This document shows, in pieces, positions 6,393-22,627 of a stretch of DNA of 22,889 nucleotides. Made by a program: the position numbers and the translations under genes. The notes under the pieces were generated by a model, which searched no databases, was not told the origin of the DNA, and was given only the letters and a program-made list of their open reading frames with translations. Where the stretch lies: positions 1-22,889 of IMG/VR virus record IMGVR_UViG_3300009548_000032. One strand, 5' to 3'. The stretch's first letter is position 1, and each line of letters begins with the position of its first letter. This DNA is from a virus.

Positions 6393-6665
6393 GTGAACAC
6401 CGGCTCGGCCGTGACGGTGCAGAAGTCACAACGTGAGACGGGAGAACTGGATACACTCACTGCAATGAATAATGCGGCCCTTGCAGCGTATGGATATCAG
6501 CAGCAGGCTACGGGCTTTACGGCGCAAGCGGGGCTAGAAGAGGCTGAAGCAGCCCAGGCGCCATATGGTGGGGCGTTGGGAGCGTCGGGAAATCTACTTT
6601 CCAACGCCGCCAATATTGGCTTTAAATACGGCGGCTCGACGCCCGCAACCGGAGGTACTCAATAA
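6393..6665 (+). CDS. gp14-like internal virion protein, C-terminal half
   Basis: This frame is in phase with the preceding 73-codon gene and open from just after its TAA. Translation after the stop reads GGQIKASQAANNIDVNTGSA, then GELDTLTAMNNAALAAYGY. That is the conserved core of gp14-like proteins (a Q-x-A-S-x-A-A block, DVNSGS-like turn, and GELDALTIRxNA-like helix). The listed start is GTG at 6393 (inside DVNTGSA), the first plausible initiator after the stop; an AGGCGG lies about 15 bases upstream, which is far for efficient initiation. Starting there would delete part of the conserved motif, so this is more likely the downstream half of one broken or read-through gene. CGGAGGT near its end serves the next gene. 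Confidence 0.5.
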   Translation: MNTGSAVTVQKSQRETGELDTLTAMNNAALAAYGYQQQATGFTAQAGLEEAEAAQAPYGGALGASGNLLSNAANIGFKYGGSTPATGGTQ

Positions 6666-8887
6666 TGGCTGAAGTACCTTACACTGGCACCAGCCAAACG
6701 GTATTGCCGCAAGAACAAATTGGCGGAGACTATCTGCAAGTTCAGGCCAATCCGGCCGAAACGGGAGGACTTATTTCACAAGGGGTAGAAAAGGCCGGGC
6801 AGGGCATTGAGGCCGGCGCTCACTTCTTCCAGCAGGTCCAAACGGATCAGATGATAAATGATACTATGGAGAAGGGCCGGCAGATAGTTAAGAACTTCCA
6901 AGCATTACGGGGTGCCGATGCAGACGGCACTGCTCAAGCAGAAACACAGAAGCAATTAAATGAAGTTTGGAAGGCGGGCCGCGCCAATCTTGATACTCCA
7001 TTTCAGCAGCAACAATACGACCAACAAAGTAGAATGTTCTTTGAGCGATTCCTTGCGCCGCAAATTGACAATCATGCAATTCAGCAGAATTTGGTTTATG
7101 CAAATGGGGTGGTGGAAAGTAGAAAAGATAACGGCCGATCTATCATAAACGAGGCGCCGTGGGACAATAATGCCTTTACTACCGGCGTCGGCCTAATGCA
7201 TGATGCGTATATAAAGCAGGCGCAGTTGAAGTATGGACAAAACTTACCGAAAGAAATCTTAGATCAGGTACAGCAACAGACGGAAATCGATGCGACGGAG
7301 AGTAGAATCCTCGCGCTGCTGCCAAGCGATCCAGTTATGGCAAAAGCTATATTTGATTCGCCGAAGAATAATAAAGCATTATCTTCTGCCCCAAATTTTG
7401 ATACTCTTTCTGCTCATGTTGAAACGGCATATAATAGACAAATTGCTGGGCCTATTGCAGATCAAAAATTAGCACAAATAGGTGTGGTAAACACTCCTAC
7501 CGGCCCAACCCTCACCCCACGGCCCATCGGCCCTTCACAAATAAATTCCCTCATCGACATTCTACACAATCAAGAAAGTGGAGGCGCAAATGCCGCTCCG
7601 ACTTCACCTGCGGGTGCTGTTGGCCCTATGCAGATCAAACCTGCCACTTTTGCCCAATATTCCCGCCCCGGCGAAAACCTGGATATTAACAATCTTGCAG
7701 ATCAGCGCACTGTTGCTGGTAGAATTATTGAAGACGGCCTGCGCCTTAGTGGCGGTAATCCTGCGGGCGCTGCTGTGGCTTACTTCTCAGGGGCGGGAAA
7801 TGTTGCGCCGCCTGGAAGCCCAACTCCTTGGAAGAAGGATTTAGTTGATCCGACAAACGGCCTCAGCACGTCGCAATATGTACAGCAGGTAAGTGCTAAG
7901 AGTGCCAAGGCGGGAATGCTTATCGATAAGGCGGCGGTGCTCGATCAGATTGACAAGGACTACCCAAATAACCCCGCCCTCGCCCAAGCCATCCGCTCCC
8001 ACATCAATGAAAGATTTGCCATTGCCAACCAAGTACAACAGAGCGCGGCCCTGGAACAGGAGAATTGGAGAAACCAGACGGCCGCTAACTTTGCCTCTGA
8101 AATTGTTAAATCAACTTTGCCGGGGCAGACCTTGGCGCCGGATTTTTATTCTAGGGTGGCAACTGCATTGCAAAATGGACTCAGCGCATCTGCTGGAGAA
8201 GGATTGTATAGATTTGCGCGCCAAGCTTCTACTGACGCAATAAGCCAAACGGCGAAAGAGTATGGTTCAGGTTTTCTTGATGTAGTGCGGCGGCTTAATC
8301 TGCCTGCTGATGATCCTAATCGTATCTCTAATGATAGCCAGTTAGTTTCCTATCTCGGCGCCAACCCGGATCAATTAAAGCCGAGTGGGGTTACTGAGGC
8401 GTCTAGATTTTTGAAAATGGCCCATGAGCAGCCGGGGCAAAGTCTTATGATTGAGCAATTCTTAAAAACTGCTCGTAGTCAAATAGTTGGGCCGGAAGTA
8501 AAGGGATATCCCAACCCCGAAGCAGAGCAGAAGTATTCATCTTGGCTTACCGCCGCGCTGCCTCAAATCTATAAAGGTATTGATGAAGGCAAGCCGATTT
8601 CGGAACTGACGAAAGAGGGCAGCCCGCTTGATTTGGATATTAAGAAACTTATACAGCCATTGGCTGAAAAGATAAATGCCCCCTCTGCGCCGGCCCCTAT
8701 CCGCGCTCCTGGCTTTACTTTCGACCTCACAAAGCACGACATCTCCACTCCTGAAGGTATCGCCAATACCCGCGCCGGAATTGTTGACGCATATCAAGCG
8801 TCCTCTAAAACCGCCCGCGATTGGGATTTGGCCCACGACGCACTTACTAAACTCCCTCAAGGCCCTCAAGCGCCGGTGAGTAAGTAA
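6665..8887 (+). CDS. Ejection protein with SLT lytic transglycosylase domain
   Basis: A 740-residue internal virion protein in the T7 gp15/gp16 position. Residues about 290-385 form a lytic transglycosylase domain: the catalytic glutamate is probably E304 in HNQESGG, followed by SPAGAVGPMQIKPATF and a later GNPAGAAVAYFSGAGN. That is the usual ES-GAxGxMQ-NPxxAxxxYxxG layout of SLT/goose-lysozyme-like folds. The N-terminal 280 residues and C-terminal 350 residues are helical and Gln/Ala-rich with no clear family. Such proteins are ejected with the DNA and open the peptidoglycan for passage across the envelope. The start follows CGGAGGT and overlaps the previous stop as TAATG. Enzyme assignment is strong; which of gp15 and gp16 it corresponds to is not settled. 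Confidence 0.85.
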   Translation: MAEVPYTGTSQTVLPQEQIGGDYLQVQANPAETGGLISQGVEKAGQGIEAGAHFFQQVQTDQMINDTMEKGRQIVKNFQALRGADADGTAQAETQKQLNEVWKAGRANLDTPFQQQQYDQQSRMFFERFLAPQIDNHAIQQNLVYANGVVESRKDNGRSIINEAPWDNNAFTTGVGLMHDAYIKQAQLKYGQNLPKEILDQVQQQTEIDATESRILALLPSDPVMAKAIFDSPKNNKALSSAPNFDTLSAHVETAYNRQIAGPIADQKLAQIGVVNTPTGPTLTPRPIGPSQINSLIDILHNQESGGANAAPTSPAGAVGPMQIKPATFAQYSRPGENLDINNLADQRTVAGRIIEDGLRLSGGNPAGAAVAYFSGAGNVAPPGSPTPWKKDLVDPTNGLSTSQYVQQVSAKSAKAGMLIDKAAVLDQIDKDYPNNPALAQAIRSHINERFAIANQVQQSAALEQENWRNQTAANFASEIVKSTLPGQTLAPDFYSRVATALQNGLSASAGEGLYRFARQASTDAISQTAKEYGSGFLDVVRRLNLPADDPNRISNDSQLVSYLGANPDQLKPSGVTEASRFLKMAHEQPGQSLMIEQFLKTARSQIVGPEVKGYPNPEAEQKYSSWLTAALPQIYKGIDEGKPISELTKEGSPLDLDIKKLIQPLAEKINAPSAPAPIRAPGFTFDLTKHDISTPEGIANTRAGIVDAYQASSKTARDWDLAHDALTKLPQGPQAPVSK

Positions 8888-8888
8888 T

Positions 8889-11800
8889 ATGGATGGATCA
8901 GTAGAAACTCTTCTTGGGCCGCGCCCTGGAACTGATAGTAGTGACTTGGGGCCTCGGCCGCAGGAAGGGGCGGGGCTCGGCTATCAGGGGCAATCGGAGG
9001 AGGAGAGTGATGCTTATACTAGACTTGGGGTGGGTGTCGGCCATGTGCTGAAAGCAATGGCGGGGTCGGCCGGCAACGCCATGTCTGAAGATCAATTCAG
9101 CGGCCCGGTACAGGAGGAGCTACGCAAAGCCAAGATAATTGGGCCGGATAGCAGCCACGGAAACCTCATTCAGCAATTCAACGAGCAGGTACTTCGGCCC
9201 CTAATTATGACTGGCGAGTTCGGGGCGCGGCTGATGGGGGCGGGTTTTGGGGCGTATCAGGCGGGAATGGAAAAGGCCGGTGAAGAAGTTGGCGCCCCGA
9301 TACTTGGCCGAGATTTGGCTGCCCTGCCAGAGGCATTTATGGGCCATGCGGAAACTCTCGGCTATATCGCCAAGGGGCGTGAATTAGGAATTATTGGCGA
9401 TCGGGCCGATATAGCCGCACCTGTAGTAACTCCTGGCAAGCCGCCCCTGCCTATCCTTGAATCAAAGCTTCCTCTTGAGCCGGATACCATCACCAAGCCC
9501 CTAGACATTCACACCCTTGCCCGGCAAATTGACCCCCCTACTTTCCAAGTCTTCGACGCCCTTCAATCCCGTAACGAGATGCTCCGCGAGCAAATTAATA
9601 CTCTCGCCGAGGTGCGCGGCGAAGTACCGCCAAGCCCTGAACTGGCTGCTTTGCAAGAAAAAGAGGGCAGTATTCTTAGTAAGGTTAATGGGGTAGAGGA
9701 GAGGCTTACTAAGAAGCAAAGTACGGCCCTGGCGGATATCAGGGGGCAGATGGCTGAGTTGCCGACGCCGCAAATTGATACTTCTGAGATGGCGGAATTG
9801 AGGGCGCAGATTCAGAAGAATGACTATCAGATGCGGGACTTGGCCGTGCCGATTAGTAAGGCGTATGATGAGGCGAAGATGAGGATGCCAGCGCCGGCAG
9901 AAATTCAGCCTGAGACAGCCCCGCCCGCCCCGGCCGAAGCACCGAAAGAAATCCTCTCTTCCCAAGGCACCGTCATTTCCTCGCCCGAAATGTTTGATAG
10001 TATTGCCGCAAGTGAAAAGCAAAAGCTGGTCGCGGCCGGGCGCCCGGAGGAAGAAGCTAATCTTGTCTCTCAACTTATCGCCATGCACTATCAAACTTTA
10101 GCTCAATACTTTGATGGGGCGAAGGGCACGGCGGAGGAGTTGTATAAGAGTGAGGCGCCTCTCATTGAAGGTAAAAGAAAACTTACTATAAATGATGTTA
10201 ATACTATTGATTTTAATCAAACAACTCAAGGGCGTCTTCGTACATTTTCTGATAATAAGACAATTGTTAAATTATTTAAATCTGCCGATGCAAGCACTTT
10301 CATACATGAAACTGGTCATAAATGGTTAAGTGAATTAATGCTTGCTGCAAAAGATGACATGGCACCGCAGCAACTTAAAGACTTAGTAAGTGCTACTCGG
10401 AAATGGTTGGGCGTATCTGAACAATTAGATATGACTAACTTAAAAAATAAAACTGTAAAAGAAGCTCATGAAAAGTGGGCAACAGCGTTTGAAAGATATC
10501 TTTATGATGGACAAGCACCAACACCTATACTCGCCAAAGTATTTAATCAATTTAGAGATTGGTTAGCTGCAATTAAAGGTAAAGTTGAAAAACTTATGCC
10601 CATCTCCAATGATATCAAAGATGTCTTTGATAAGCTCATCACCCCCAATCCCGAGCGGCAGCCGGTGGGGAAAATTGAGCCGGCCGGCAAGGCCATTGCC
10701 GATATTCACGAAGCCGATGCGAAACTTACCCCTTCCAATCAGGCCGATGCGGTAGGAGATTTAGTAAACTCCGAAATTCACGCAATGGTCGAATCCCATC
10801 CTAATTTGAAAGAGGCAGTAAATGGACCTACAATCCAACCCGGACTTGAAGGAGGCCGAGGCGGCGGCGATGGCAACGAGGTTGCAGGAGCTAGACCAAC
10901 AGAGCCTCACGCCGGAGGAACAGCAGTTACTTCCCCATCTCCAGAGATCGGTCGGGGCGCTGGTACAACTGAGGGGGAAGGCAAAGGCGGCGAGGCAGCC
11001 GGCCCTGGGATAAAAGTAGAAGAGACGGGCGGCGCGGGCGGCGCTACTGTTGCGGATGCGGTTAAAACTACTGAGCGTAGCTCATCGAAGTTCATTGACA
11101 AGGCCGGGAATATCCGACGCGATACCCTCAATATGGCCTCCGATGTTTTTCAGGCGATAAAAGACGCCTCTACGGCCGCCGGTGAATTTATGTCGGCCCG
11201 GCGCGGAAAGCTTAGTCTTGCCGAGCAGCAAATGATGGCAGACGAACTTGGCCTGGAGCATATTGATGCGTGGAAAGTAGGGCAAACTTTCAATGCAGAG
11301 CAGATCATTCATGTAAGAAATCTCATGATTGGCGCGGCGGCAGACGTAAAAGAAGCGATGAATAAGGCTTTTGAGACTGGCGATCCGAATGATCTATTGG
11401 CTTTTGCAAAGAGCCGTGCCCGCCTCTCTATGATAGCAGAAGTGGTATCAGGAGTAACTGCGGAAGCAGGTCGGGCATTGGCCGCGTTTAGAAATATCAA
11501 AGGGTTTAGAGAATCACTAGATCTAATTAATTTCCTAAAAGAAACTCAAGGCATGGATTTATTTCAGATGCAGCAGATGGCCGAACACGGTCGTTCGCTT
11601 AATACTACTCATCAAATAGTTAAATTTATGAACGACAGCTATACCAAGCCCGACTTTGCCAGCAGGATGATTTATTACTATGTAAATGCCCTCATCTCCG
11701 GCTCAATGACACATATTCGGTATAGTATTGGTAATGCCATCAATGCCGTGGCGCGGCCCTTGGCAGTAATTCCCATCGCCGCCGCACAAGGAGCAATACA

Positions 11801-13493
11801 GGAAGCGTTGGGGTTGGAAGTAAAGAATAGGGTGTATCTTGGCGAAGCCGGCGCGCAACTTCATGCGATGTACAAAGGGGCGCAAGATGGAATTAGGGCC
11901 GGCGCAGAAGCATTCAGATCCGGGCAAAGCCCATTACTACCAGGAGAAAGGGTGCGGAGCGGCTTCAATTATGGTAATAATCCAATCATTGAGAATTGGG
12001 CTTATAAGAAGGCGGTGAAGGAGGGATTGCAAGACGATGCATTGCGGGCGCGGATTGGGGAGTTGGTAAAGAAACCTGATTATACCGAGCTTGAGGCATT
12101 ATTCGGTGAGGCCATTTCGTATCCGGGGCGCACCGTTTCGGCAATTCACTCTTTTTTCAAGTCACTACGCTATGAGCAAAATATCGCCGGGTTGGCTTAT
12201 CGTACTGCTACGAAAGAGGGACTGACCGGGGCAGCATTCGACCGGCGCATTGCGGAACTTACTGAACGCCCCACCCTTGATATGATGGCGAAGGTTACAG
12301 AGGATAAGCCCGATTTGCTTCCTGCCGGCCTCCGCGAAAATATCAACGACGCCACGACCGACGCGCTAAAAGAACTTTATATGCGTAATACCGAATATGG
12401 CACAGCCATGTATCATCTCGCCGCCGCAGTAAATATGACGCCGGCCGTAAAACTCATAGTACCGTTTTTGAAAATTGGTACAGAGATCATCAACGAAGCG
12501 GTGGAATATTCCCCGGCGGCTGTTTTACAGGGCAAGGAAGTAAGGCAGAACTTGATTGGGCGCGGCGCTAAGGCGGACTTACAGCGGGCGAAGGTAATCT
12601 TCGGCACGTCGCTTATGGGAGCCACGTCGTTGATGGTATTACAGGGCATCGCTACCAGCGACGGGCCGACCGATCCGAGAGAGCGGGAAAATTGGCTTAA
12701 GCTGCACCGGCCCAATTCTATCAATATCGGCAACCTTTGGATACCCTATCAGGGCCTGGGCCATCTTGGTATGCTCATGCGATTTAGTGCCAACGTCACC
12801 GACACAGTACAAGGATGGGATGATAAAGAAGGCGGCCAAATCGCTGGGGAATTCTTTCATGACATTACCAGATCGATACTTGATGAAAGTTGGATGCGCG
12901 GCGCCCACGATATGATGGAGGCGATGTACGATGAAAAGGGGCCGACAGCAGCGCGGTTTATCCGCAGCTTTGCCACTAACTGGCTGCCCTATTCAGTAGG
13001 ATTGGGCCAAGTTGCGCGGATGATTGATCCATATCAGAGAAAGGTGGATGATCTTGGGTCGGAAAATCTCTGGGGAATATTGAGCGCGGCGCAGGCGAAA
13101 GTACCTTTGCTCAGTCAGCGCCTAATGCCCCGGCGAGATTCCTATGGCGAGCCGATAGAGAGCTATGTTGGAAAGTATAGCAACGATCCGACGACGCTGA
13201 TGCTCGATGATTTGCAAACGGGGATTGGGTACTTGCCTAAGAATATCGGCGGGGTTCAACTTGATGAAAATCAATATGATGATTACCAACGTATTGCGGG
13301 GCGGTATACCAAAGCCCTTCTTGATAAGATGGCTTCAAATCCTTACTTCATGAAAATGAAGCCGGAGCATAAGATTGACGCAATTAACGCAACCATAGGC
13401 GCGGCCCGGAAGGGGGCGAAGAATGCTATGTTTGCAAAGTATCCTGATGTATATAAACAAATTGTCGATAACGCCCAAGACGACGTAGAGTGA
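8889..13493 (+). CDS. Giant polyvalent ejection protein with metallopeptidase-like and LPD38-like domains
   Basis: A 1534-residue protein closing the ejection operon. Order of parts: residues 1-190 Gly/Ala-rich; 230-330 predicted coiled coil; about 425-575 a domain with HETGH at 473-477 and AHEKWATAFERYLYDG from 526 (zincin-like, with H473, H477 and possibly E528 as ligands); 645-710 a Gly/Glu/Thr low-complexity linker; 1010-1050 a hydrophobic stretch (PLAVIPIAAAQGA); and about 1230-1320 a segment with SDGPTDPRERENWLK and PNSINIGNLWIPYQGLG that resembles the large polyvalent protein-associated domain 38. Such proteins are carried in the capsid and enter the cell first. DNA for 10160-10610 is much more A+T-rich than its flanks, and a second frame runs under the linker. 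Peptidase activity is inferred only from motif. Confidence 0.75.
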   Translation: MDGSVETLLGPRPGTDSSDLGPRPQEGAGLGYQGQSEEESDAYTRLGVGVGHVLKAMAGSAGNAMSEDQFSGPVQEELRKAKIIGPDSSHGNLIQQFNEQVLRPLIMTGEFGARLMGAGFGAYQAGMEKAGEEVGAPILGRDLAALPEAFMGHAETLGYIAKGRELGIIGDRADIAAPVVTPGKPPLPILESKLPLEPDTITKPLDIHTLARQIDPPTFQVFDALQSRNEMLREQINTLAEVRGEVPPSPELAALQEKEGSILSKVNGVEERLTKKQSTALADIRGQMAELPTPQIDTSEMAELRAQIQKNDYQMRDLAVPISKAYDEAKMRMPAPAEIQPETAPPAPAEAPKEILSSQGTVISSPEMFDSIAASEKQKLVAAGRPEEEANLVSQLIAMHYQTLAQYFDGAKGTAEELYKSEAPLIEGKRKLTINDVNTIDFNQTTQGRLRTFSDNKTIVKLFKSADASTFIHETGHKWLSELMLAAKDDMAPQQLKDLVSATRKWLGVSEQLDMTNLKNKTVKEAHEKWATAFERYLYDGQAPTPILAKVFNQFRDWLAAIKGKVEKLMPISNDIKDVFDKLITPNPERQPVGKIEPAGKAIADIHEADAKLTPSNQADAVGDLVNSEIHAMVESHPNLKEAVNGPTIQPGLEGGRGGGDGNEVAGARPTEPHAGGTAVTSPSPEIGRGAGTTEGEGKGGEAAGPGIKVEETGGAGGATVADAVKTTERSSSKFIDKAGNIRRDTLNMASDVFQAIKDASTAAGEFMSARRGKLSLAEQQMMADELGLEHIDAWKVGQTFNAEQIIHVRNLMIGAAADVKEAMNKAFETGDPNDLLAFAKSRARLSMIAEVVSGVTAEAGRALAAFRNIKGFRESLDLINFLKETQGMDLFQMQQMAEHGRSLNTTHQIVKFMNDSYTKPDFASRMIYYYVNALISGSMTHIRYSIGNAINAVARPLAVIPIAAAQGAIQEALGLEVKNRVYLGEAGAQLHAMYKGAQDGIRAGAEAFRSGQSPLLPGERVRSGFNYGNNPIIENWAYKKAVKEGLQDDALRARIGELVKKPDYTELEALFGEAISYPGRTVSAIHSFFKSLRYEQNIAGLAYRTATKEGLTGAAFDRRIAELTERPTLDMMAKVTEDKPDLLPAGLRENINDATTDALKELYMRNTEYGTAMYHLAAAVNMTPAVKLIVPFLKIGTEIINEAVEYSPAAVLQGKEVRQNLIGRGAKADLQRAKVIFGTSLMGATSLMVLQGIATSDGPTDPRERENWLKLHRPNSINIGNLWIPYQGLGHLGMLMRFSANVTDTVQGWDDKEGGQIAGEFFHDITRSILDESWMRGAHDMMEAMYDEKGPTAARFIRSFATNWLPYSVGLGQVARMIDPYQRKVDDLGSENLWGILSAAQAKVPLLSQRLMPRRDSYGEPIESYVGKYSNDPTTLMLDDLQTGIGYLPKNIGGVQLDENQYDDYQRIAGRYTKALLDKMASNPYFMKMKPEHKIDAINATIGAARKGAKNAMFAKYPDVYKQIVDNAQDDVE
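10822..11013 (+). CDS. Candidate nested gene overprinted in the giant ejection gene
   Basis: A 63-codon frame in another phase inside the 1534-residue gene. It begins with ATG directly after an in-phase TAA (10819-10821) and is preceded by AGAGG six bases before the ATG, a strong ribosome binding site. The product would be a charged, amphipathic helical protein: NPDLKEAEAAAMATRLQELD, LTPEEQQLLPHLQ, then a basic tail LRGKAKAARQPALG. It looks more like a folded helical protein than the host frame does: in the host frame the same bases give only a Gly/Glu/Thr/Pro low-complexity linker, and the linker spans the same interval. No function is known. It may instead be a chance frame or the trace of compensating frameshifts. 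Confidence 0.45.
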   Translation: MDLQSNPDLKEAEAAAMATRLQELDQQSLTPEEQQLLPHLQRSVGALVQLRGKAKAARQPALG

Positions 13494-15831: not shown

Positions 15832-16041
15832 TTAATTATCTTTTCGAGGAGGTTCAATACATATACAACCTAATTCTCTAAATTCCGTTAAATCAGTTGC
15901 ACAACTAAGTTTAAGAATTAATGTAGCATTAACTGGCAAATCAATAGTTCCTAAAATAGCCTGATCGATAATTTGTTTTGCTAGACGAATTTCAGCATCG
16001 AGAATATTTTCCAGTTTAGAACAGATGCTTATATTACTCAT
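15832..16041 (-). CDS. Small uncharacterised protein at the operon end
   Basis: A 69-residue protein, not recognised. It is mostly one amphipathic helix (SKLENILDAEIRLAKQIIDQ) followed by a hydrophobic beta-like stretch (LPVNATLILKLSC) and four cysteines in total, one in the N-terminal SICSK and a CIC pair near the end. The composition is A+T-rich compared with the lipase gene upstream. Its ATG overlaps the lipase-like gene stop (ATGA), and GGAGATGGGGC precedes it, so the two are probably translated together. The stop lies two bases from the terminator of the opposing operon. No membrane segment or signal peptide was seen. Confidence 0.5.
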   Translation of the reverse strand: MSNISICSKLENILDAEIRLAKQIIDQAILGTIDLPVNATLILKLSCATDLTEFRELGCICIEPPRKDN

Positions 16042-16790
16042 GCCCCATCTCCATTCCCAAACACACTACTAAGATGCTCCAGGGCCGGAATATACACCCC
16101 ACTAATACTATGATCCTCTGGCAGCAGGCCGCCCTTCCAATCTTTCTCTGAGATGTATGCAAAGTTTCTTGGCTCAAGATAGAGTATGCTTTGCCCCGGC
16201 GGCTGGCGCCACGGCGTTTCTCCTATCAAGTCCCAAGGCCAGCCGGCCCATAAGTCGCGCCAGTAAATGCAAGTAATGTCGCCCGGATGCCAGTATTTTG
16301 ACCAGAAGGCGAGCGAGGCGAACTTTGGCGGGGCGAAGGCGACAATTTGCGCGATGCGGTCGGAAGGGATGAAGTACCGGGCGTAGCGGGACCGGGAGCC
16401 GAGGCTGTGCCCCTCGATGAATAGCTTCGCCCCTTTGGAAGTTTCCGCCGCCCACTCAAAGAGTTCCTTACAGCCCTGCCACGGCCCGGTTGGAACTACT
16501 ATGCCCGGTTCAATTTCCAGCGGGGTTGTGTCGATATCGTCGTAGAGGTCTCCAAATCTTTCAATAGGAGTGCCGGAAGTGAAGCGGGTGCCGGAGATGG
16601 TAAGATATGTCGGATCTGTACTTGCAGTTGGGCTGCTTGCGTCTAGAGAAAGTACCGCCTTGTGGTCGTCGTTGATGTAAGTGCCAATGATGAGATGATT
16701 AAGATCATTGAAGGCAGTTGCCATTTGATCGAAATCTTCTATATAGACCGCATTGCACCGCCGGGCGCTTTGTAGAAGAGTGGTGAACAT
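16038..16790 (-). CDS. Class 3 lipase-like alpha/beta hydrolase
   Basis: A 250-residue protein with the class 3 lipase layout: KLFIEGHSLGSRSR carries the nucleophile elbow GHSLG (S129), preceded by a helix (CKELFEWAAE) and followed by the usual F-A-P-P-K-F strand. Candidate triad partners are D171 in HPGDITCIYWRDL and H227 in PEDHSISGVY, spaced as in fungal and bacterial class 3 lipases. There is no signal peptide, so it would act in the cytoplasm or after lysis. GAGGGAGTAAAGTAAAATG provides the ribosome binding site. It sits at the promoter-distal end of the replication operon, next to small unknowns. Substrate could be a phospholipid, other ester or thioester; a phage role in envelope breakdown is possible but unproven. 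Confidence 0.65.
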   Translation of the reverse strand: MFTTLLQSARRCNAVYIEDFDQMATAFNDLNHLIIGTYINDDHKAVLSLDASSPTASTDPTYLTISGTRFTSGTPIERFGDLYDDIDTTPLEIEPGIVVPTGPWQGCKELFEWAAETSKGAKLFIEGHSLGSRSRYARYFIPSDRIAQIVAFAPPKFASLAFWSKYWHPGDITCIYWRDLWAGWPWDLIGETPWRQPPGQSILYLEPRNFAYISEKDWKGGLLPEDHSISGVYIPALEHLSSVFGNGDGA

Positions 16791-16808
16791 TTTACTTTAC
16801 TCCCTCAT

Positions 16809-16976
16809 CTATCTCTGAACACGAAGATAAAGTATACTCAACAACTGCTCATAAGCTTGTCTAATTTTCCATGGTGGTTCAATTCCAGCAGCCCGGCGGC
16901 GAAGTCGGTAGGCTTTTCTTAAAGAATTTGCCTTACTTTGACCTGGAATTAGTTTTGAGTTTACAAGTCCAGCCAT
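16809..16976 (-). CDS. Short Arg-rich basic protein
   Basis: A 55-residue frame filling the gap before the lipase-like gene. The translation is strongly basic: GQSKANSLRKAYRLRRRAAG, then IEPPWKIRQAYEQLLSI and a TAG stop at 16809-16811. The start ATG at 16976 is preceded by GAGGGATTGATT, a good ribosome binding site overlapping the end of the upstream gene, two bases away. The cluster of arginines could bind nucleic acid. Its codons look like its neighbours. It is not recognised as any family; support is the binding site, tight packing and absence of another explanation for the interval. Confidence 0.5.
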   Translation of the reverse strand: MAGLVNSKLIPGQSKANSLRKAYRLRRRAAGIEPPWKIRQAYEQLLSILYLRVQR

Positions 16977-16978
16977 AA

Positions 16979-17287
16979 TCAATCCCTCATACTTTCAAGA
17001 TAATCCGCATAATCGCTGGCCGCCGCCTCAAATAACTCCTCTTGCGCCCTTTCCTCTTCCTTATCAGTCAGTTCAATTCCATCTCCGTTATCAAGCCGCG
17101 TAGCGAAGATATCCTCAAACCAATCTAACATGAGGCCGACATCCGGCTCGGCGCGGCAGAGAGTGCCGGAGATTTCTACTTCAATATCGACGTCTTCCTT
17201 CTCATACTCTGGCACGCCGGCCGCGTCATAGAAGACAGGATTGTTGAAGGTGCGGGTGATAGTCATAATAGTTGTGGTTTTGGTCAT
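16979..17287 (-). CDS. Acidic uncharacterised protein
   Basis: A 102-residue protein not assigned to a family. The N-terminus is Thr-rich (MTKTTTIMTITRTFNNPVFYD), the middle is beta-like and acidic (EKEDVDIEVEISGTLCRAE), and the C-terminal third is a strongly acidic helix (ELTDKEEERAQEELFEAA). Start at 17287 is chosen because AAGGAGAAATAAA lies just upstream; an earlier in-phase initiator at 17311 would put that site inside the gene. The net negative charge recalls DNA-mimic proteins, but there is no specific similarity to a known anti-restriction protein, so function stays open. The next gene follows after two bases. Confidence 0.55.
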   Translation of the reverse strand: MTKTTTIMTITRTFNNPVFYDAAGVPEYEKEDVDIEVEISGTLCRAEPDVGLMLDWFEDIFATRLDNGDGIELTDKEEERAQEELFEAAASDYADYLESMRD

Positions 17288-17288
17288 T

Positions 17289-17537
17289 TTATTTCTCCTT
17301 AAAGATTTCATCTAATCTTGGTTCTGTGTCTCGTTCACGATTTGGGATATATTTTGGCGGTACCGTGCTATTACCTTTTGGCTCCCAACCAGCCCCGGCA
17401 TTACTTTCCGGCTCTGCCCATACTGCCTTTTTCTGTTCTGGAGTTAATTTTTTACAGCGGCGCTGGCGGCTTGGGAAGGGGCATCCAGTGGGTCGGCGGC
17501 ATACCAAAATCAGAATATTCACCGAGATAGTTGACAC
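17289..17537 (-). CDS. Doubtful small frame or shifted extension of the DUF551-like gene
   Basis: Between the DUF551-like stop (17452) and the next gene (17287) the only protein-like frame reads KKLTPEQKKAVWAEPES, then GWEPKGNSTVPPKYIPNRE and LDEIFKEK, ending TAA at 17289. Its composition resembles a real soluble protein. The listed start is GTG at 17537, which overlaps the DUF551-like gene by 86 bases and has no ribosome binding site, and the first 30 residues look like out-of-frame translation. Either a weak internal start is used or the segment is reached by a +1 shift at CTG-TAA-AAA. It ends just before the AAGGAG of the acidic protein gene. Confidence 0.35.
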   Translation of the reverse strand: MSTISVNILILVCRRPTGCPFPSRQRRCKKLTPEQKKAVWAEPESNAGAGWEPKGNSTVPPKYIPNRERDTEPRLDEIFKEK

Positions 17538-17685
17538 TCAGATGAAAGCCGCCAGGTTCCGGTCCTCCGCCCCACCAATGGGCCGTGGTCGGCGGCAGTT
17601 GCGGCTGCTTGGCGTTCCAAACTAGGATATGAGTCCCGTCCATCGGCGCCGTCTCGATCGGCTGCCACTGCGCTCGCTCACCCAT
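17452..17685 (-). CDS. DUF551-like protein
   Basis: A 77-residue protein with the full signature of the DUF551-type family found in many phages: WQPIETAPMDGTHILVW at the N-terminus, HWWGG in the middle and PTHWMPLPKPPAPL at the end. Family length is usually 60-120 residues, so this is a complete copy. Function is unknown; the family is soluble and often sits among early or accessory phage genes. CGGGGAATG gives the start, ten bases after the stop of the DUF3987-like gene. Just past its stop, another frame continues with protein-like sequence. Confidence 0.75.
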   Translation of the reverse strand: MGERAQWQPIETAPMDGTHILVWNAKQPQLPPTTAHWWGGGPEPGGFHLSVNYLGEYSDFGMPPTHWMPLPKPPAPL

Positions 17686-17694
17686 TCCCCGAGC

Positions 17695-18960
17695 TCACTC
17701 AATCCCAAATCTAGTACTTACCACCAACGGCACCACACTAAACGTATCTTTCGTCTCTTGCAACAAATCACTTTCCATCATCATTTCGAGAATAATATTC
17801 ACCTTTTCACTAGGTACTCTATCCTTAAGAAAGCTCCGCACTGGTTCTTTTCTTATGGGGTTATTTCCGCCCTTGGTATATAGAGCCCAAATGAAGGTGT
17901 GGCATTCTTCCATTACGTCTTTGTCAGAACGGCCGAGCATGGCGCGGAATACATCTGGCATAAGAGCTTCAATCTCAAGGAGCCAATCCCTTGCGCGATT
18001 ATAGTCTTCAACTCTGATGATGAGTTCACCTCTAGCAGACAACGCTGCGACCATTGCAAGTTTGATAGTGAAGAAAGCTCTACGAGAACAGTAATCTTCG
18101 AGTTTACTATGCTTTAGGCGCGGCGGGCAGCCCGCTTCATCCCAAGTCTGCAATATCTCCACCGCGTCCGTTTCCCATAGAAATTGCCCGCGTAGGGCCG
18201 AAAGGTGAAATAAGTCATCTGTAAGTTTCTTCCTCGCTGCTTTCTTCTTCGCCTTCTCGGCGTCGCTGGTAGTTGTGAAATACTTAACCTTTACATCCTC
18301 GTCACTATATACCATAAGCATCCGGCCCATAAAACCCATACCCCAAGCCACGTCAGGTAAGACCTCCCCAAGAGCGCAAGGAGTAGCACCGATAAGCAAG
18401 TTAAGGGAAGGATTAATGATATCAATATTAAGGCCACCTGTCCGCCTCTTTTGCTGGAAATTGGAGTAGTTCGACCAAAGGGCCGTCATGGTGGTGATGA
18501 AGGTATTATCGAAGGTTTTTAGAAATACGCCAAGTTCTTCGGCAAAGACGGTTAGGTAGGAATATTGTTCGGCGCGGCCGTTTACGTCTTTGTGGGCAAA
18601 GTTCTGCTGCATGGCGTCTGCAACTTCGTCGATGAGAGAAGATGTTGTAACGTCATGAGACCCGACTTTAATCTTAGCCGCTCCGACCGCTGCTCCCTTG
18701 CTAGAATATTCACCCCCCGATAAATCCCGAAGCATTCCCTCGCCGACCTTAATAATCTCCTTGCCCTTACCGGGCCGGGCGACAAGCATGATGAATTGAT
18801 TCGCATACGCCGGCTTATCTTCAAGGGAATTACTCCATACGCGCCGCTCAACGGCGCCGGAAATGAGGGAGATTGCTGTCCATTTACGGAATATTTCGGG
18901 GGACTTTTGCCCGGCGGTATATTTTAAAAAGCGTTCGATAAAGTCTTCGGACCAAGGCAT
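17695..18960 (-). CDS. DUF3987-like helicase/primase-type ATPase
   Basis: A 421-residue P-loop-type protein. The N-terminus FLKYTAGQKSPEIFRKW, then ISLISGAVERRVW, matches phage proteins of the DUF3987 group, which are linked to replicative helicase/primase functions. The nucleotide-binding segment is FIMLVARPGKGKEII at 57-71, where the loop position normally Ser/Thr after GK is Glu68. A Walker B-like strand follows, YLTVFAEELG with E141-E142, then a possible sensor region NLLIGATPCALGEVLP. AGGGATTATC before ATG supplies the ribosome binding site, below a hairpin at 18976-18999. The gene lies between HNH/polymerase and small genes. A role at the replication fork is inferred; with the altered P-loop, ATP hydrolysis is uncertain. 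Confidence 0.65.
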   Translation of the reverse strand: MPWSEDFIERFLKYTAGQKSPEIFRKWTAISLISGAVERRVWSNSLEDKPAYANQFIMLVARPGKGKEIIKVGEGMLRDLSGGEYSSKGAAVGAAKIKVGSHDVTTSSLIDEVADAMQQNFAHKDVNGRAEQYSYLTVFAEELGVFLKTFDNTFITTMTALWSNYSNFQQKRRTGGLNIDIINPSLNLLIGATPCALGEVLPDVAWGMGFMGRMLMVYSDEDVKVKYFTTTSDAEKAKKKAARKKLTDDLFHLSALRGQFLWETDAVEILQTWDEAGCPPRLKHSKLEDYCSRRAFFTIKLAMVAALSARGELIIRVEDYNRARDWLLEIEALMPDVFRAMLGRSDKDVMEECHTFIWALYTKGGNNPIRKEPVRSFLKDRVPSEKVNIILEMMMESDLLQETKDTFSVVPLVVSTRFGIE

Positions 18961-18975
18961 GATAATCCCTAAAAG

Positions 18976-18999
18976 ATTTACCGGGCGTCCCCGGTAAAT
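18976..18999 (-). promoter_or_regulatory. Hairpin upstream of the DUF3987-like gene
   Basis: ATTTACCGGG pairs with CCCGGTAAAT (10 bp) around a four-base loop. On the minus strand the hairpin is followed by CTTTTAGGGATTATC and the start ATG at 18960, so it sits directly before the ribosome binding site. The T-run is too short for a convincing terminator. It could be an attenuator, an RNA-processing or stability element, or a protein-binding site. A second, shorter repeat GAGGC-CGGC-GCCTC lies at 19011-19024. The rest of the 18961-19053 interval holds no gene. Confidence 0.6.
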
Positions 19000-19053
19000 G
19001 AATTTTATTTGAGGCCGGCGCCTCGGAGGGGTTATTTTCTATAGGGATCATTT

Positions 19054-19728
19054 TTAAAATTCTATAATATCTAATGTTGGTAGTTGTGTTACATTAGGAT
19101 TTTCACTGGTAGGTAAATTAGATTTTATATTACTTTGTGTATGTACAAACATATGATATGCTTGACTTGGACATAGAAATAAATTTGAAGGGTCATTGTT
19201 TAATTTATCTTCATCAATATGATGAATAACTTCACCTTTTATTAATTTTCTTCCTAAAGCTTTTTCAGCTATCATGACATGCTCTAAAATTCTTTCACCA
19301 TTAATGTTAAATTCTCTATACCCATCTTTTGTTATAGTTCCCAAACCTTTTTCGCCTATAATTGTGAATTCTCTTCCATATTTAAATACAGTTTTGTAAT
19401 GTGTTTGACAATATCCTTTAGAGAAAGCATCTTTTTCACAGTTTTCAACTAGACATATTTTATCTTTTTGATTTTCATTTAATGATATATCAGGATTGCC
19501 GTATCTTTGTATTTTATGATAATGTGCACTACAATATCCGCCAGCAAAAGCATCTGAATTACAATCTAATAATACACATTTGCCACCACTTTTAACGTGT
19601 TTTGAAAAATTTACGTCTCCATGTCTGTAAAATCTGTTGGTGTGCATAGCACATAAGCCTTTACCTGAATTCTTTTTTATAGGTTTTGTACAGCCATCAA
19701 CTATGCAAATTTTTATTTTGGTTTCCAT
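19054..19728 (-). CDS. HNH endonuclease with three zinc-finger repeats
   Basis: A 224-residue free-standing HNH endonuclease, probably a homing-type mobile gene. Three tandem zinc repeats C-x4-C-x9/12-C-x2-H are visible: C8-C13-C26-H29, C51-C56-C66-H69 and C92-C97-C107-H110, each followed by a YG-type turn (RHGDV, RYGNP, KYGRE). The catalytic part is GEVIHHIDEDKLNNDPSNL with H169, H170, N178 and N182, then CPSQAYHMFVH. The DNA is much more A+T-rich than the upstream polymerase 5' half, a common sign of recent arrival. Its ATG lies inside the polymerase gene with a 16-base overlap, AGGA upstream and A7 just before it. The C-terminus ends LDIIEF. Confidence 0.85.
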   Translation of the reverse strand: METKIKICIVDGCTKPIKKNSGKGLCAMHTNRFYRHGDVNFSKHVKSGGKCVLLDCNSDAFAGGYCSAHYHKIQRYGNPDISLNENQKDKICLVENCEKDAFSKGYCQTHYKTVFKYGREFTIIGEKGLGTITKDGYREFNINGERILEHVMIAEKALGRKLIKGEVIHHIDEDKLNNDPSNLFLCPSQAYHMFVHTQSNIKSNLPTSENPNVTQLPTLDIIEF

Positions 19729-21203
19729 TTTTTTAATCCTGCTAAATTGATCCTAGTTGCTTTTCCAGATTTTACATCATTTTCATCTGAAAATGCACCC
19801 CAATTAAAACCTAACTTACACTCTCCCGGCACTATCAATTCATGTCTATTATGTGTTAATCGAATATCTATTAATGAGAGGGCTTTGGGGATAACAATGT
19901 TTTCTTCTTCTTCTTTGTACAAAAAATATACAGCATCATATACAGTAGCAAGAAGTTTTACTTCTAGCATATATTTCCAAATGCGCCAAAGTCCAAGATT
20001 CATTCGTTCAGCAGTAGATGATTGTGGTGAATAAGCAATTGCTTCTCGTAGCGTACTATCATCATTAGGCCGGCCGAAAAAATGTCTCGTTCGACCCCAA
20101 GGGGTAGTCAGACTTTGACTTTCTTCTAACTGTTCTCTGACCCATTCATGCCATTGTGGCATTGCTGGAAAGGCTTCAAAATACTTTTCCTGAAATTCTG
20201 TGCAAAGTTTTACTTCTATCTTTGCATGTTTAGCAAGAGTATATGGTTTTCCACCATAATTACTTCCGTGCCCAAGTTTCTTACACATAAAACGATAGTC
20301 TAAACCACGATAAAAAGGAGTTTCGGCTATCTCTCTATCAAATTTTTTATTTCCGGTCCAAGGGAGGTTAGGCCAAACCATTTTGGCAACAGTAGTATGA
20401 AGATCACCTGCATAGCAAGCATCGAGATAACGCCAATCATCGAAAAGTATTCCATGAAGCCAGCCGACTTCACGGCTCTCAGCTTGTTCTAAATCAATAC
20501 CGCAAAGTTTCCAACCTTTGTCTGCAACAAAGATATGACGAAGATCAGCATCTATGTTGAAGATATTTCTGCCGGTATCTTCAGAGGATGCGCTGCTTGA
20601 CGGCCGGCCTGTTACAGTACCGGCGATATTAAAAGAGTATCGCATCCTTCCATCGTTGTCGATTTCAGTCTGAAATACTTCTCTTTGTTTAACAAGGTCA
20701 CGAATTTGTAAGATGCAGGAGAGAATCGGCCGGGCAATAAGGTAATCATCAAGTTTCTCCAGGGCTTCGCGGTCAACGGAGGGCTTCTTTACGCCCTTGT
20801 CATTCTTATATTGAACAGGCAGGCGCATCGCCTCGTAGAGAAATTCCTTAAGTTGGGCCGGCGAGGCGGGGTTGAGGGAGACGGTATTCTTATCCTTATC
20901 CTTAAAGGTCTTGTCCCAAATGACCGAGGCAAAGGTTTGGAGGATGTAGGTGAGGCGGTCGATTTTTTTATTAAGTTCGGAGACGCCAGATATGGCCGCG
21001 CCTCGGTCTACTTTCCAGCCGCGTAACATCATATCCAGGGCTGGGGCTTGCAAGGCGCGCTCGAAGGCATAGATGGGGTTATCAGCGTTGGATTCTAAGG
21101 CTTGGAAGATTTCAAGCGTAAGACAACTATCGAGGCCGTTGTATACTTGGTGGACGGCTGGTGGAGTTTCGGAAGGCTTGAGATCGGCGGTTTGGATGAT
21201 CAT
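19713..21203 (-). CDS. polA: Family A DNA polymerase, short form
   Basis: A 496-residue replicative polymerase of the PolA family (T7 gp5 has 704). Motif A is CGIDLEQAESREVGWLHG with D237, E242 and R244; the region before it, FNIAGTVTGRPSS, is the conserved TGR. Motif B is RFMCKKLGHGSNYGG with R304, K308 and Y316, with H312 where E. coli PolI has F762 and T7 has Y526. Motif C is TVYDAVYF with D423 but Tyr for the usual His and Ala for the usual Glu. Only the third exonuclease motif (YNGLD, 21-25) remains, so proofreading is unlikely unless another chain supplies motifs I and II. ATG overlaps the upstream stop (ATGA). Confidence 0.9.
   Translation of the reverse strand: MIIQTADLKPSETPPAVHQVYNGLDSCLTLEIFQALESNADNPIYAFERALQAPALDMMLRGWKVDRGAAISGVSELNKKIDRLTYILQTFASVIWDKTFKDKDKNTVSLNPASPAQLKEFLYEAMRLPVQYKNDKGVKKPSVDREALEKLDDYLIARPILSCILQIRDLVKQREVFQTEIDNDGRMRYSFNIAGTVTGRPSSSASSEDTGRNIFNIDADLRHIFVADKGWKLCGIDLEQAESREVGWLHGILFDDWRYLDACYAGDLHTTVAKMVWPNLPWTGNKKFDREIAETPFYRGLDYRFMCKKLGHGSNYGGKPYTLAKHAKIEVKLCTEFQEKYFEAFPAMPQWHEWVREQLEESQSLTTPWGRTRHFFGRPNDDSTLREAIAYSPQSSTAERMNLGLWRIWKYMLEVKLLATVYDAVYFLYKEEEENIVIPKALSLIDIRLTHNRHELIVPGECKLGFNWGAFSDENDVKSGKATRINLAGLKKWKPK
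19728..19734 (-). other. A7 slippery run at the polymerase-HNH junction
   Basis: Seven A residues on the minus strand directly precede the rest of the HNH start codon. In polymerase phase the bases read TTA AAA AAA TGG, so A AAA AAA fits the heptamer rule for a -1 shift. After such a shift the next codon is exactly the HNH ATG, which would join the two proteins. This is only a sequence possibility; an AGGA upstream also allows ordinary initiation. Confidence 0.4.
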
Positions 21204-21559
21204 TGAATTTGCTCTGTTCTTCCACCATGACGAAAAACTTCACCATATTCACCAATGGTGACTTGAGTATCGCTATATTGCTTTAATGCTTTTTTTACTG
21301 CGGTTTCAGCATTATTTTGATATTTGTTAAATTTGTCTTCTAAGTCTTTATATTTCTTTTTCCATTCACGTTCAATTTCATTGTATCGATCGGATGAGGG
21401 TGGTTGATAAAAGGCCATGTGGTAGTTTTCGTGGGCGCCTTTCATACCCTTTGCAATATCTTTTTGTTGTTCTTTGGCCAAGCTTTCCCAAATATGGAAA
21501 ATACCTCCCTCATCAAAAGAGCATGAAAGGGCTTCAAACCAATAGTCGATATCATTCAT
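21200..21559 (-). CDS. Coiled-coil protein before the polymerase gene
   Basis: A 119-residue protein not assigned to a family. The first 60 residues (MNDIDYWFEALSCSFDEGG, then IWESLAKEQQKDIAKGM) resemble an N-terminal domain seen in short phage proteins of replication regions; the region from 65 to 100 is a charged coiled coil (EREWKKKYKDLEDKFNKYQN). The start at 21559 overlaps the SLOG stop as ATGA and has GTGAGG upstream; an earlier initiator at 21580 is less likely. Its own stop overlaps the polymerase ATG. Tight coupling to the polymerase suggests a replication accessory role, but nothing in the sequence proves it. Confidence 0.55.
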   Translation of the reverse strand: MNDIDYWFEALSCSFDEGGIFHIWESLAKEQQKDIAKGMKGAHENYHMAFYQPPSSDRYNEIEREWKKKYKDLEDKFNKYQNNAETAVKKALKQYSDTQVTIGEYGEVFRHGGRTEQIQ

Positions 21560-21903
21560 CAAAACCTCACCACTTGACAATTTTTACTAAGTGCATAATT
21601 AATCATTCCTTGCGTTCCCGTATTCCCAGGAAAAGCAATAACCATATCTGGTAAAAAATTATCAAACATTTGACGATTTCTAATCATGCCGGCGGCTTTT
21701 TTAAATTTATCCCAATCTGGTTTGTAGATTTTAACTGGAATTTTATTCCTATTCGCCCACATATTTGCAAAAGTGTCAGCACCATTTGCGCCGCCTTGGG
21801 CAATTTCAATGAAAGGATCATACTTGTGTATGTCATCGAGACAGTTGCAAAAATATTTCCAGTCGTTAAAATTTCGGCCGCCGCAAATAATTGCTCTAAT
21901 CAA
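21559..21903 (-). CDS. YspA/cpYpsA-type SLOG protein
   Basis: A 114-residue Rossmann-like protein of the YspA (cpYpsA-related) SLOG group. Diagnostic blocks are CGGRNFNDW at 7-15, IAQGGANGADTFANMWA at 34-50, KPDWDKFKKAAGMIRNRQM at 61-79 and AFPGNTGTQGM at 90-100. SLOG domains bind nucleotide-derived ligands, and some act in base-modification or toxin/defence pathways; the ligand for this group is not known with confidence. Initiation appears to use TTG at 21903, overlapping the methyltransferase stop as TTGA, with GAGGAT ten bases upstream inside the end of the methyltransferase gene. Confidence 0.8.
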   Translation of the reverse strand: MIRAIICGGRNFNDWKYFCNCLDDIHKYDPFIEIAQGGANGADTFANMWANRNKIPVKIYKPDWDKFKKAAGMIRNRQMFDNFLPDMVIAFPGNTGTQGMINYALSKNCQVVRF

Positions 21904-22481
21904 AATTCAATATCCTCAACAGTCGCCTTGGGCTTATCATACCCATAAATAATATAACTATCCGAAACTCTTCCATGAAATTCAGTAACTTCAGCAACAT
22001 TAGATTTAAATAAATACCAACAGCAATTATCCTTACCTGTCATTTTACTATCGGGTATCCACTTAACTCGCCCAACACTGACAATTTTATGACAATATTT
22101 AATCAATTCAGAACTTTGTTTAGTATGCATCCAATCAGCGTCAAATAGTAACCATGTTGGCGCAATTTCTGATAAATTTTTAATAATGGGGTGTAAAATT
22201 TTTCTATCCCAAGGCGGATTAGTGATAAAGTAATCTGCACTACATGAAATTAATGTTATAGCATCAGCTATTTCGGCTTTTGGGCAGGAAGATTTAATGT
22301 CAGATGCACCACGACACCTATATCCGGCAGATTCTAAATGATTAATTAAATCACCGTTTCCGCAACACGGCTCGTCAAATTCAAGACCTTTTTCAAGATG
22401 AGATAATAATGGAATTACTGCCTCATATGGAGTAGGATAGAAATCTCTTTCTACTCTTTCGAAATCTGATCGTTTTCCCAT
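21900..22481 (-). CDS. DNA adenine methyltransferase-like protein
   Basis: A 193-residue Rossmann methyltransferase. SAM site: FDEPCCGNGDLINHLE at 35-50 (E37-P-C-C-G-N-G); catalytic strand: DYFITNPPWDRK with NPPW at 88-91, the [DNS]PP[YFW] motif for exocyclic amino methylation of adenine or cytosine. Later blocks PTWLLFDADWMHT and VKWIPDSKMTGKDN recur in phage relatives. The start chosen is 22481 (MGKRSDFERVERDFYPTP, the family's usual opening); a start at 22553 would add 24 poorly conserved residues. It overlaps the upstream small gene. The C-terminus ends KPKATVEDIEF, shared with the protein at the window end. It may modify phage DNA; target is unknown and no partner nuclease is present. 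Confidence 0.8.
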   Translation of the reverse strand: MGKRSDFERVERDFYPTPYEAVIPLLSHLEKGLEFDEPCCGNGDLINHLESAGYRCRGASDIKSSCPKAEIADAITLISCSADYFITNPPWDRKILHPIIKNLSEIAPTWLLFDADWMHTKQSSELIKYCHKIVSVGRVKWIPDSKMTGKDNCCWYLFKSNVAEVTEFHGRVSDSYIIYGYDKPKATVEDIEF

Positions 22482-22627
22482 TCTTTCGGTGCTTTCATTA
22501 AAACTGAATAGTGGCCATGATGACAAGATTTTAAATCGTCGATAATTATCCAACCTTGAGATTTATATTTAATAATATCACAATGGCAGATAAATTGATA
22601 TGTTTCAAAATTCAATTTCTTCGACAT
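22451..22627 (-). CDS. Small uncharacterised protein
   Basis: A 58-residue protein beginning MSKKLNFETYQFICHCDII and containing YKSQGWIIIDDLKSCHHG, then HYSVLMKAPKEWE. The G-W...HHG-HYSVLM layout is like short proteins found in other phages, where function is unknown. The ATG at 22627 follows AAAGG and lies inside the end of the upstream gene, overlapping it by 23 bases; the TAG stop at 22451 lies 30 bases inside the methyltransferase gene. A longer upstream in-phase start would sit wholly in the preceding gene and is rejected. His and Cys residues (CHC, CHH) might bind metal. Confidence 0.55.
   Translation of the reverse strand: MSKKLNFETYQFICHCDIIKYKSQGWIIIDDLKSCHHGHYSVLMKAPKEWENDQISKE

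Follow-up and report, generated by a model that had tools for sequence, protein, structure and literature searches.

The question raised by this locus is whether a short reading frame, lying out of frame within the linker-coding part of a giant phage DNA-ejection protein gene, is a gene in its own right. The window, i.e., the whole stretch of DNA that was analyzed, comprises positions 1 to 22,889 of the IMG/VR virus record IMGVR_UViG_3300009548_000032 (22,889 nt, probably a fragment). A first-pass annotation of the window had described a frame of 63 codons with its ATG right behind an in-phase TAA and with AGAGG at six-base spacing, and both features are present as it described them (Table 1). 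Based on the comparisons of sequences discussed below, we consider this frame very probably a real protein-coding gene nested in the linker of the ejection protein.

The C-terminal half of the host product is T7 gp16-like: residues 904-1388 match phrog_6651 ("internal virion protein", E=6e-34), making it a member of the T7 gp16-type internal virion protein D family. Residues 321-584 match phrog_9880 (E=1e-37). Upstream of the linker is a metallopeptidase-like domain, whose H-E-x-x-H motif is retained in the relatives aligned, and which is also found in Bordetella phage BPP-1 (bbp10), Pseudomonas phage AF, and others. The host translation over the nested interval (NGPTIQPGLEGGRGGGDGNEVAGARPTEPHAGG...) forms the linker between the HExxH domain and the T7 gp16-like domain, and across 38 members the host residues inside the overlap are dominated by G (20%), A (16%), P (10%), and E (10%). 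Homologs of the host protein over its full length include those in the relatives L002 and L005.

Table 1. Positions of the nested gene, its start signal and its host gene in the window, and of nested ORFs in selected relatives.
Feature	Position	Strand	Remarks
Host gene, giant internal virion/DNA-ejection protein	8889..13493	+	1534 aa; HExxH domain, linker, gp16-like C-terminal half
HETGH (HExxH) motif, metallopeptidase-like domain of host protein	10305..10319	+	Host translation; upstream of linker
Shine-Dalgarno-like AGAGG	10811..10815	+	6-nt spacer to nested ATG
In-phase TAA of nested frame	10819..10821	+	Directly 5' of nested ATG
Low-complexity Gly/Ala/Glu/Pro/Thr linker of host protein	10821..11015	+	Same bases as nested gene
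Nested gene (very probable)	10822..11013	+	63 codons, ATG start, +1 relative to host; predicted helical hairpin
Nested ORF, Rhizobium sp. BK313 prophage (L028)	G001:C1:2178844-2179176	minus	Carrier in isolate genome
Nested ORF, relative with extra domain between HExxH domain and linker	L051:7900-8136		ORF shifts with linker
Nested ORF, relative with extra domain between HExxH domain and linker	L062:1388-1639		ORF shifts with linker
Nested ORF, relative with extra domain between HExxH domain and linker	L067:7786-8037		ORF shifts with linker

The length of the nested ORF is not significant evidence by itself. In shuffles that swapped the host codons for synonyms at the frequencies found in the gene itself, the +1 frame of the window stayed free of stops over this length in 10% of cases, and the geometric mean of the corresponding probability over the members is 0.29, because the Gly/Ala/Glu-rich codons seldom give stops when read in the shifted frame. 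The case for a nested gene therefore rests on the comparison among relatives.

Occurrence in relatives and start signal

The nested ORF was found in at least 53 distinct virus, prophage, or metagenome records (counting the window, and including L068 and L069, which are near copies of each other), in the same +1 frame and the same linker. In L002, whose host protein is 67% identical to that of the window, the nested homolog (MDQNPDLKEAQAAAMATRLQNLDQSTLSPEEQQLLPHLQRSVGALVQLRAKAKEGR...) is located at the same place and in the same frame, and over the same bases the nested proteins are 77% identical vs. 57% for the host proteins. A nested homolog is also present in L005, whose host protein is 52% identical. 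A profile HMM built from 14 nested proteins detected the held-out L018 (E=6e-16), and with this profile the ORF was recognized in 39 loci that share the HExxH-linker-gp16 layout, most of the others at E<1e-8. In all 39 tabulated loci both the nested and the host frames are free of stops, while the third frame contains 1-8, and the nested frame is the host +1 frame wherever the host motifs could be located. Stops or frame breaks in close relatives, which the first-pass annotation had proposed to look for, occur in none of the relatives examined. Three relatives (L051, L062, and L067) have an extra domain between the HExxH domain and the linker, and a similar +1 ORF is present at the displaced linker, too diverged for the 14-member profile to match.

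Searches with the nested protein alone, ignoring the host, gave the same picture: 18 of 18 and 9 of 9 matches are nested in this host frame, and homology of the nested protein is detectable even where the host proteins are only ~30% identical. The association is strict, with the nested gene found only inside this host gene, and a free-standing copy in unfused relatives was encountered neither among the loci examined nor in the searches with the nested protein alone. T7-like phages and marine relatives holding the gp16-like half only (MW202801, ProddE, and most of L072-L114) are without the Gly-rich linker and give no match to the nested gene. The giant virion proteins of BPP-1 (bbp10), phage AF (gp16), and Xanthomonas phage CP2 (ORF24) also have the HExxH domain, and the genes downstream of the endolysin gene are in the same order, but they do not match the nested-gene profile, and annotated phages gave no match to the nested proteins of the window, L041, or L052.

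The relatives recovered by scanning viral and genome contigs include a prophage of Rhizobium sp. BK313 and contigs from metagenome-assembled genomes of Betaproteobacteria and Rhizobiales. Among 398 genomes of the family to which the Rhizobium genome belongs, the BK313 prophage is the sole convincing carrier, and two weak matches both lie inside longer frames. As its carrier is an isolate genome, this prophage may serve as an experimental system.

The nested starts also carry a recognizable initiation signal. At 39 nested starts, picked by a rule blind to the ribosome-binding site, the mean energy of the duplex with the anti-Shine-Dalgarno sequence is -6.0 kcal/mol, vs. -2.8 kcal/mol at 1829 other same-frame ATGs (p=9e-10), and in many members CCGGAGGT or CCAGAGGT stands 4-6 bases ahead of the ATG. 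A stop codon directly precedes the nested start in the window and L002 (both TAA-ATG) and in L005 (TAA-TTG, behind AAAGGAG), and several other members have an in-frame stop 0-1 codon before it. The nested gene has a conserved start codon and a ribosome-binding site of its own.

Substitution patterns and rival explanations

In the +1 frame, the third position of a nested codon is the first position of a host codon, and the nested second position is the host third. Elsewhere in these genes, most of the change falls at the host third position; in the closest pairs this pattern reverses inside the overlap. Between the window and L057, the fractions of host positions 1, 2, and 3 that changed are 0.28, 0.19, and 0.57 outside the overlap and 0.48, 0.11, and 0.18 inside, and between L064 and L070 they are 0.13, 0.08, and 0.46 outside and 0.45, 0.21, and 0.21 inside. 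The drop at host third positions (11/61 inside vs. 274/484 outside for the window and L057, p=8e-9) was found in all seven of the pairs picked for closeness (p from 2.9e-4 to 7.7e-9) and also in the divergent pair L051/L067 (p=3.9e-4), i.e., in 8 of 8 pairs, so that the loss of synonymous change in the host frame, which the first-pass annotation had made a touchstone of its proposal, is indeed observed. When the window is compared with L004, the change at host third positions drops from 0.54-0.57 to 0.17 precisely at the nested ORF, which is the minimum of 749 sliding windows (60 codons each) across seven structural genes. Chance falls far short of accounting for the frame being conserved among relatives and for the reversal of the substitution pattern.

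By simple pairwise counts, uncorrected for multiple hits and with each difference classed by its effect in both frames, the nested-frame dN/dS is 0.21-0.90 in 7 of 7 independent pairs. It is lowest for the window and L057 (0.21) and only slightly under 1 in the pairs of greatest divergence (0.75-0.90). The host-frame dN/dS in these pairs is 0.71-1.23 inside the overlap vs. 0.20-0.71 outside. These values show purifying selection on the nested frame and nearly neutral drift of the host frame in the overlap, in agreement with the earlier proposal, in which selection acts on the second frame and the host frame does no more than tolerate it.

Several other readings of the same stretch have to be weighed. 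A chance open frame in a GC-rich linker dominated by Gly, Ala, and Glu, and conserved only through the host, would accord with the shuffling results above (a probability of 0.10 in the window). However, between the window and L002 conservation is higher for the nested protein than for the host protein, host third-position change is reduced in every pair, Shine-Dalgarno sequences are enriched at the nested starts, and the next dip in divergence (7673-7852), which serves as a negative control, lacks the reversal and is interrupted by a stop in its other frame; on these comparisons we regard a chance frame as refuted, with next to no probability left to it. Constrained synonymous sites in the host are also what an RNA structure, a packaging site, or a regulatory site in the linker would need, but host first positions change more, not less, inside the overlap (29/61 vs. 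136/484 in one pair and 30/67 vs. 66/499 in another). This raised change at nested third positions is the signature of the nested frame rather than of structure, and the homology of the nested product holds at the protein level even at ~30% host identity, so a non-coding element is disfavored and seems exceedingly improbable.

A programmed frameshift by ribosomes translating the host gene would yield a truncated ejection protein that ends in a helical tail, and no separate small protein; it is very unlikely in our judgment. The two frames are one base apart, and in some members the nested open frame is long, with no stop nearby upstream, as frameshifting would allow; in the window, L002, and L005, though, the stop immediately before the start means that any frameshift would have to fall inside the ORF, and the near-adjacent stops of several other members point the same way, as does the enrichment of a start codon with a Shine-Dalgarno sequence at the head of the ORF. 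No conserved slippery site was seen on reading the aligned starts. The remaining reading takes its cue from the same-strand, out-of-frame nested genes known in phages, i.e., E in D and B in A of phiX174 and Rz1 in Rz of lambda, among which E and Rz1 would suggest a lysis or membrane protein. Among 42 nested proteins, however, the hydropathy over 19 residues is at most 1.2 (median 0.26), indicating no transmembrane helix, and only two contain any Cys, so a general lipobox is absent. With neither the N-terminal transmembrane helix of a phiX174 E-type lysis protein nor the lipobox cysteine and hydrophobic signal peptide of a lambda Rz1-type spanin, a lysis function has only a minute probability.

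The nested product, its possible role and origin

The product had been described from the window as helical and charged, and both descriptions hold up. AlphaFold2, run with 42 relatives, predicts a helical hairpin with helices at residues 7-23 and 31-58 (pTM 0.55, mean pLDDT 79), and the 63 residues include 7 K+R and 8 D+E (pI 5.7). The conserved core is P-x-L-S-P ... R-S-A-x-A-E-x-x-L-R-x-K-A. In one branch of the family the nested protein is extended by a Pro/Ser-rich tail ending in P-x-T-S, and such a P-x-T-S tail recurs at the 3' ends of the nested ORFs of L028, L037-L039, L041, L045, and L047; it overlaps a conserved host motif, D-K-A-G-N-I-R, of which it appears to be the +1 reading, and may reflect host constraint alone.

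No family for the nested protein was found in Pfam, PHROGs, or NCBIfam, where isolated matches involve one to three members (best E ~0.002), and there was no match among PDB sequences. Fold comparison gave no significant structural relative; the weak two-helix likeness to the helical-hairpin secretion-needle chaperones PscE/YscE and EscE/EsaG (E>2, not significant) is an analogy only. In the open-licence literature, we found papers treating overlapping genes in general and no report of this nested gene. The family is absent from these libraries probably because standard gene finders omit genes inside other genes, and its absence is consistent with the limit in Prodigal, which allows same-strand genes to overlap by at most 60 bp (PMC2848648). 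The structural modules of tailed phages gain an apparently undescribed protein family, encoded by genes that are out of reach of standard pipelines.

Nested phage genes are already known as a kind, and what appears new here is the protein family. As with E and B of phiX174 and Rz1 of lambda, the small gene lies wholly within a larger one, in another frame, and has an internal start and ribosome-binding site of its own. Different from those cases are the ejection-protein host and the predicted soluble helical product, which has no sequence relation to them, as well as the nested frame being constrained and the host frame drifting. It is a clear case in which the linker of a large protein appears to be shaped by a gene hidden within it.

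We propose that ribosomes would initiate internally at the Shine-Dalgarno sequence on the late structural mRNA, and that a nested protein of roughly 7 kDa would be made separately, alongside the ejection protein. The host linker over the nested gene is a passenger that evolves almost freely, its residues mattering little while its frame stays open. The nested and ejection genes co-occur without known exception and share one transcript, and for this reason we tentatively suggest, at somewhat less than even likelihood, that the two-helix product works with the ejection protein, serving either as a chaperone in assembly or as a minor protein inside the virion; as it has no sequence or structural relative of known function, this companion role rests on the co-occurrence. 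The wide conservation suggests that production of this type of ejection protein always requires the small protein.

As to origin, the small gene may be the older element, the peptidase and gp16-like genes having been fused by a frame that opened across a small gene between them, although we consider this rather unlikely. If it were so, the Gly-rich linker would be a by-product of reading the small gene out of frame, and one stretch of mRNA would give both the linker and a partner protein of the same machine. Dating the two frames by codon usage was not decisive: the nested frame fits the phage codon usage better in 34 of 38 members, a comparison confounded by the nested third positions being the G-rich host first positions.

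Other features of the window

A second nested gene was considered in the transglycosylase gene (6665-8887), where a long +1 frame (7578-7844) coincides with low local divergence. In L004 this frame is interrupted by a stop, and codon periodicity does not reverse over it, so we rejected it; it probably does not represent a gene.

The ejection proteins of the window resemble T7 gp15/gp16. Its replication genes, encoding a DUF3987 protein and a family A DNA polymerase (16038-22553), are on the minus strand, opposite the structural genes, unlike the arrangement in T7-type phages. At 370-2449, three consecutive genes all match the tail protein family phrog_394, which suggests a tandem duplication.
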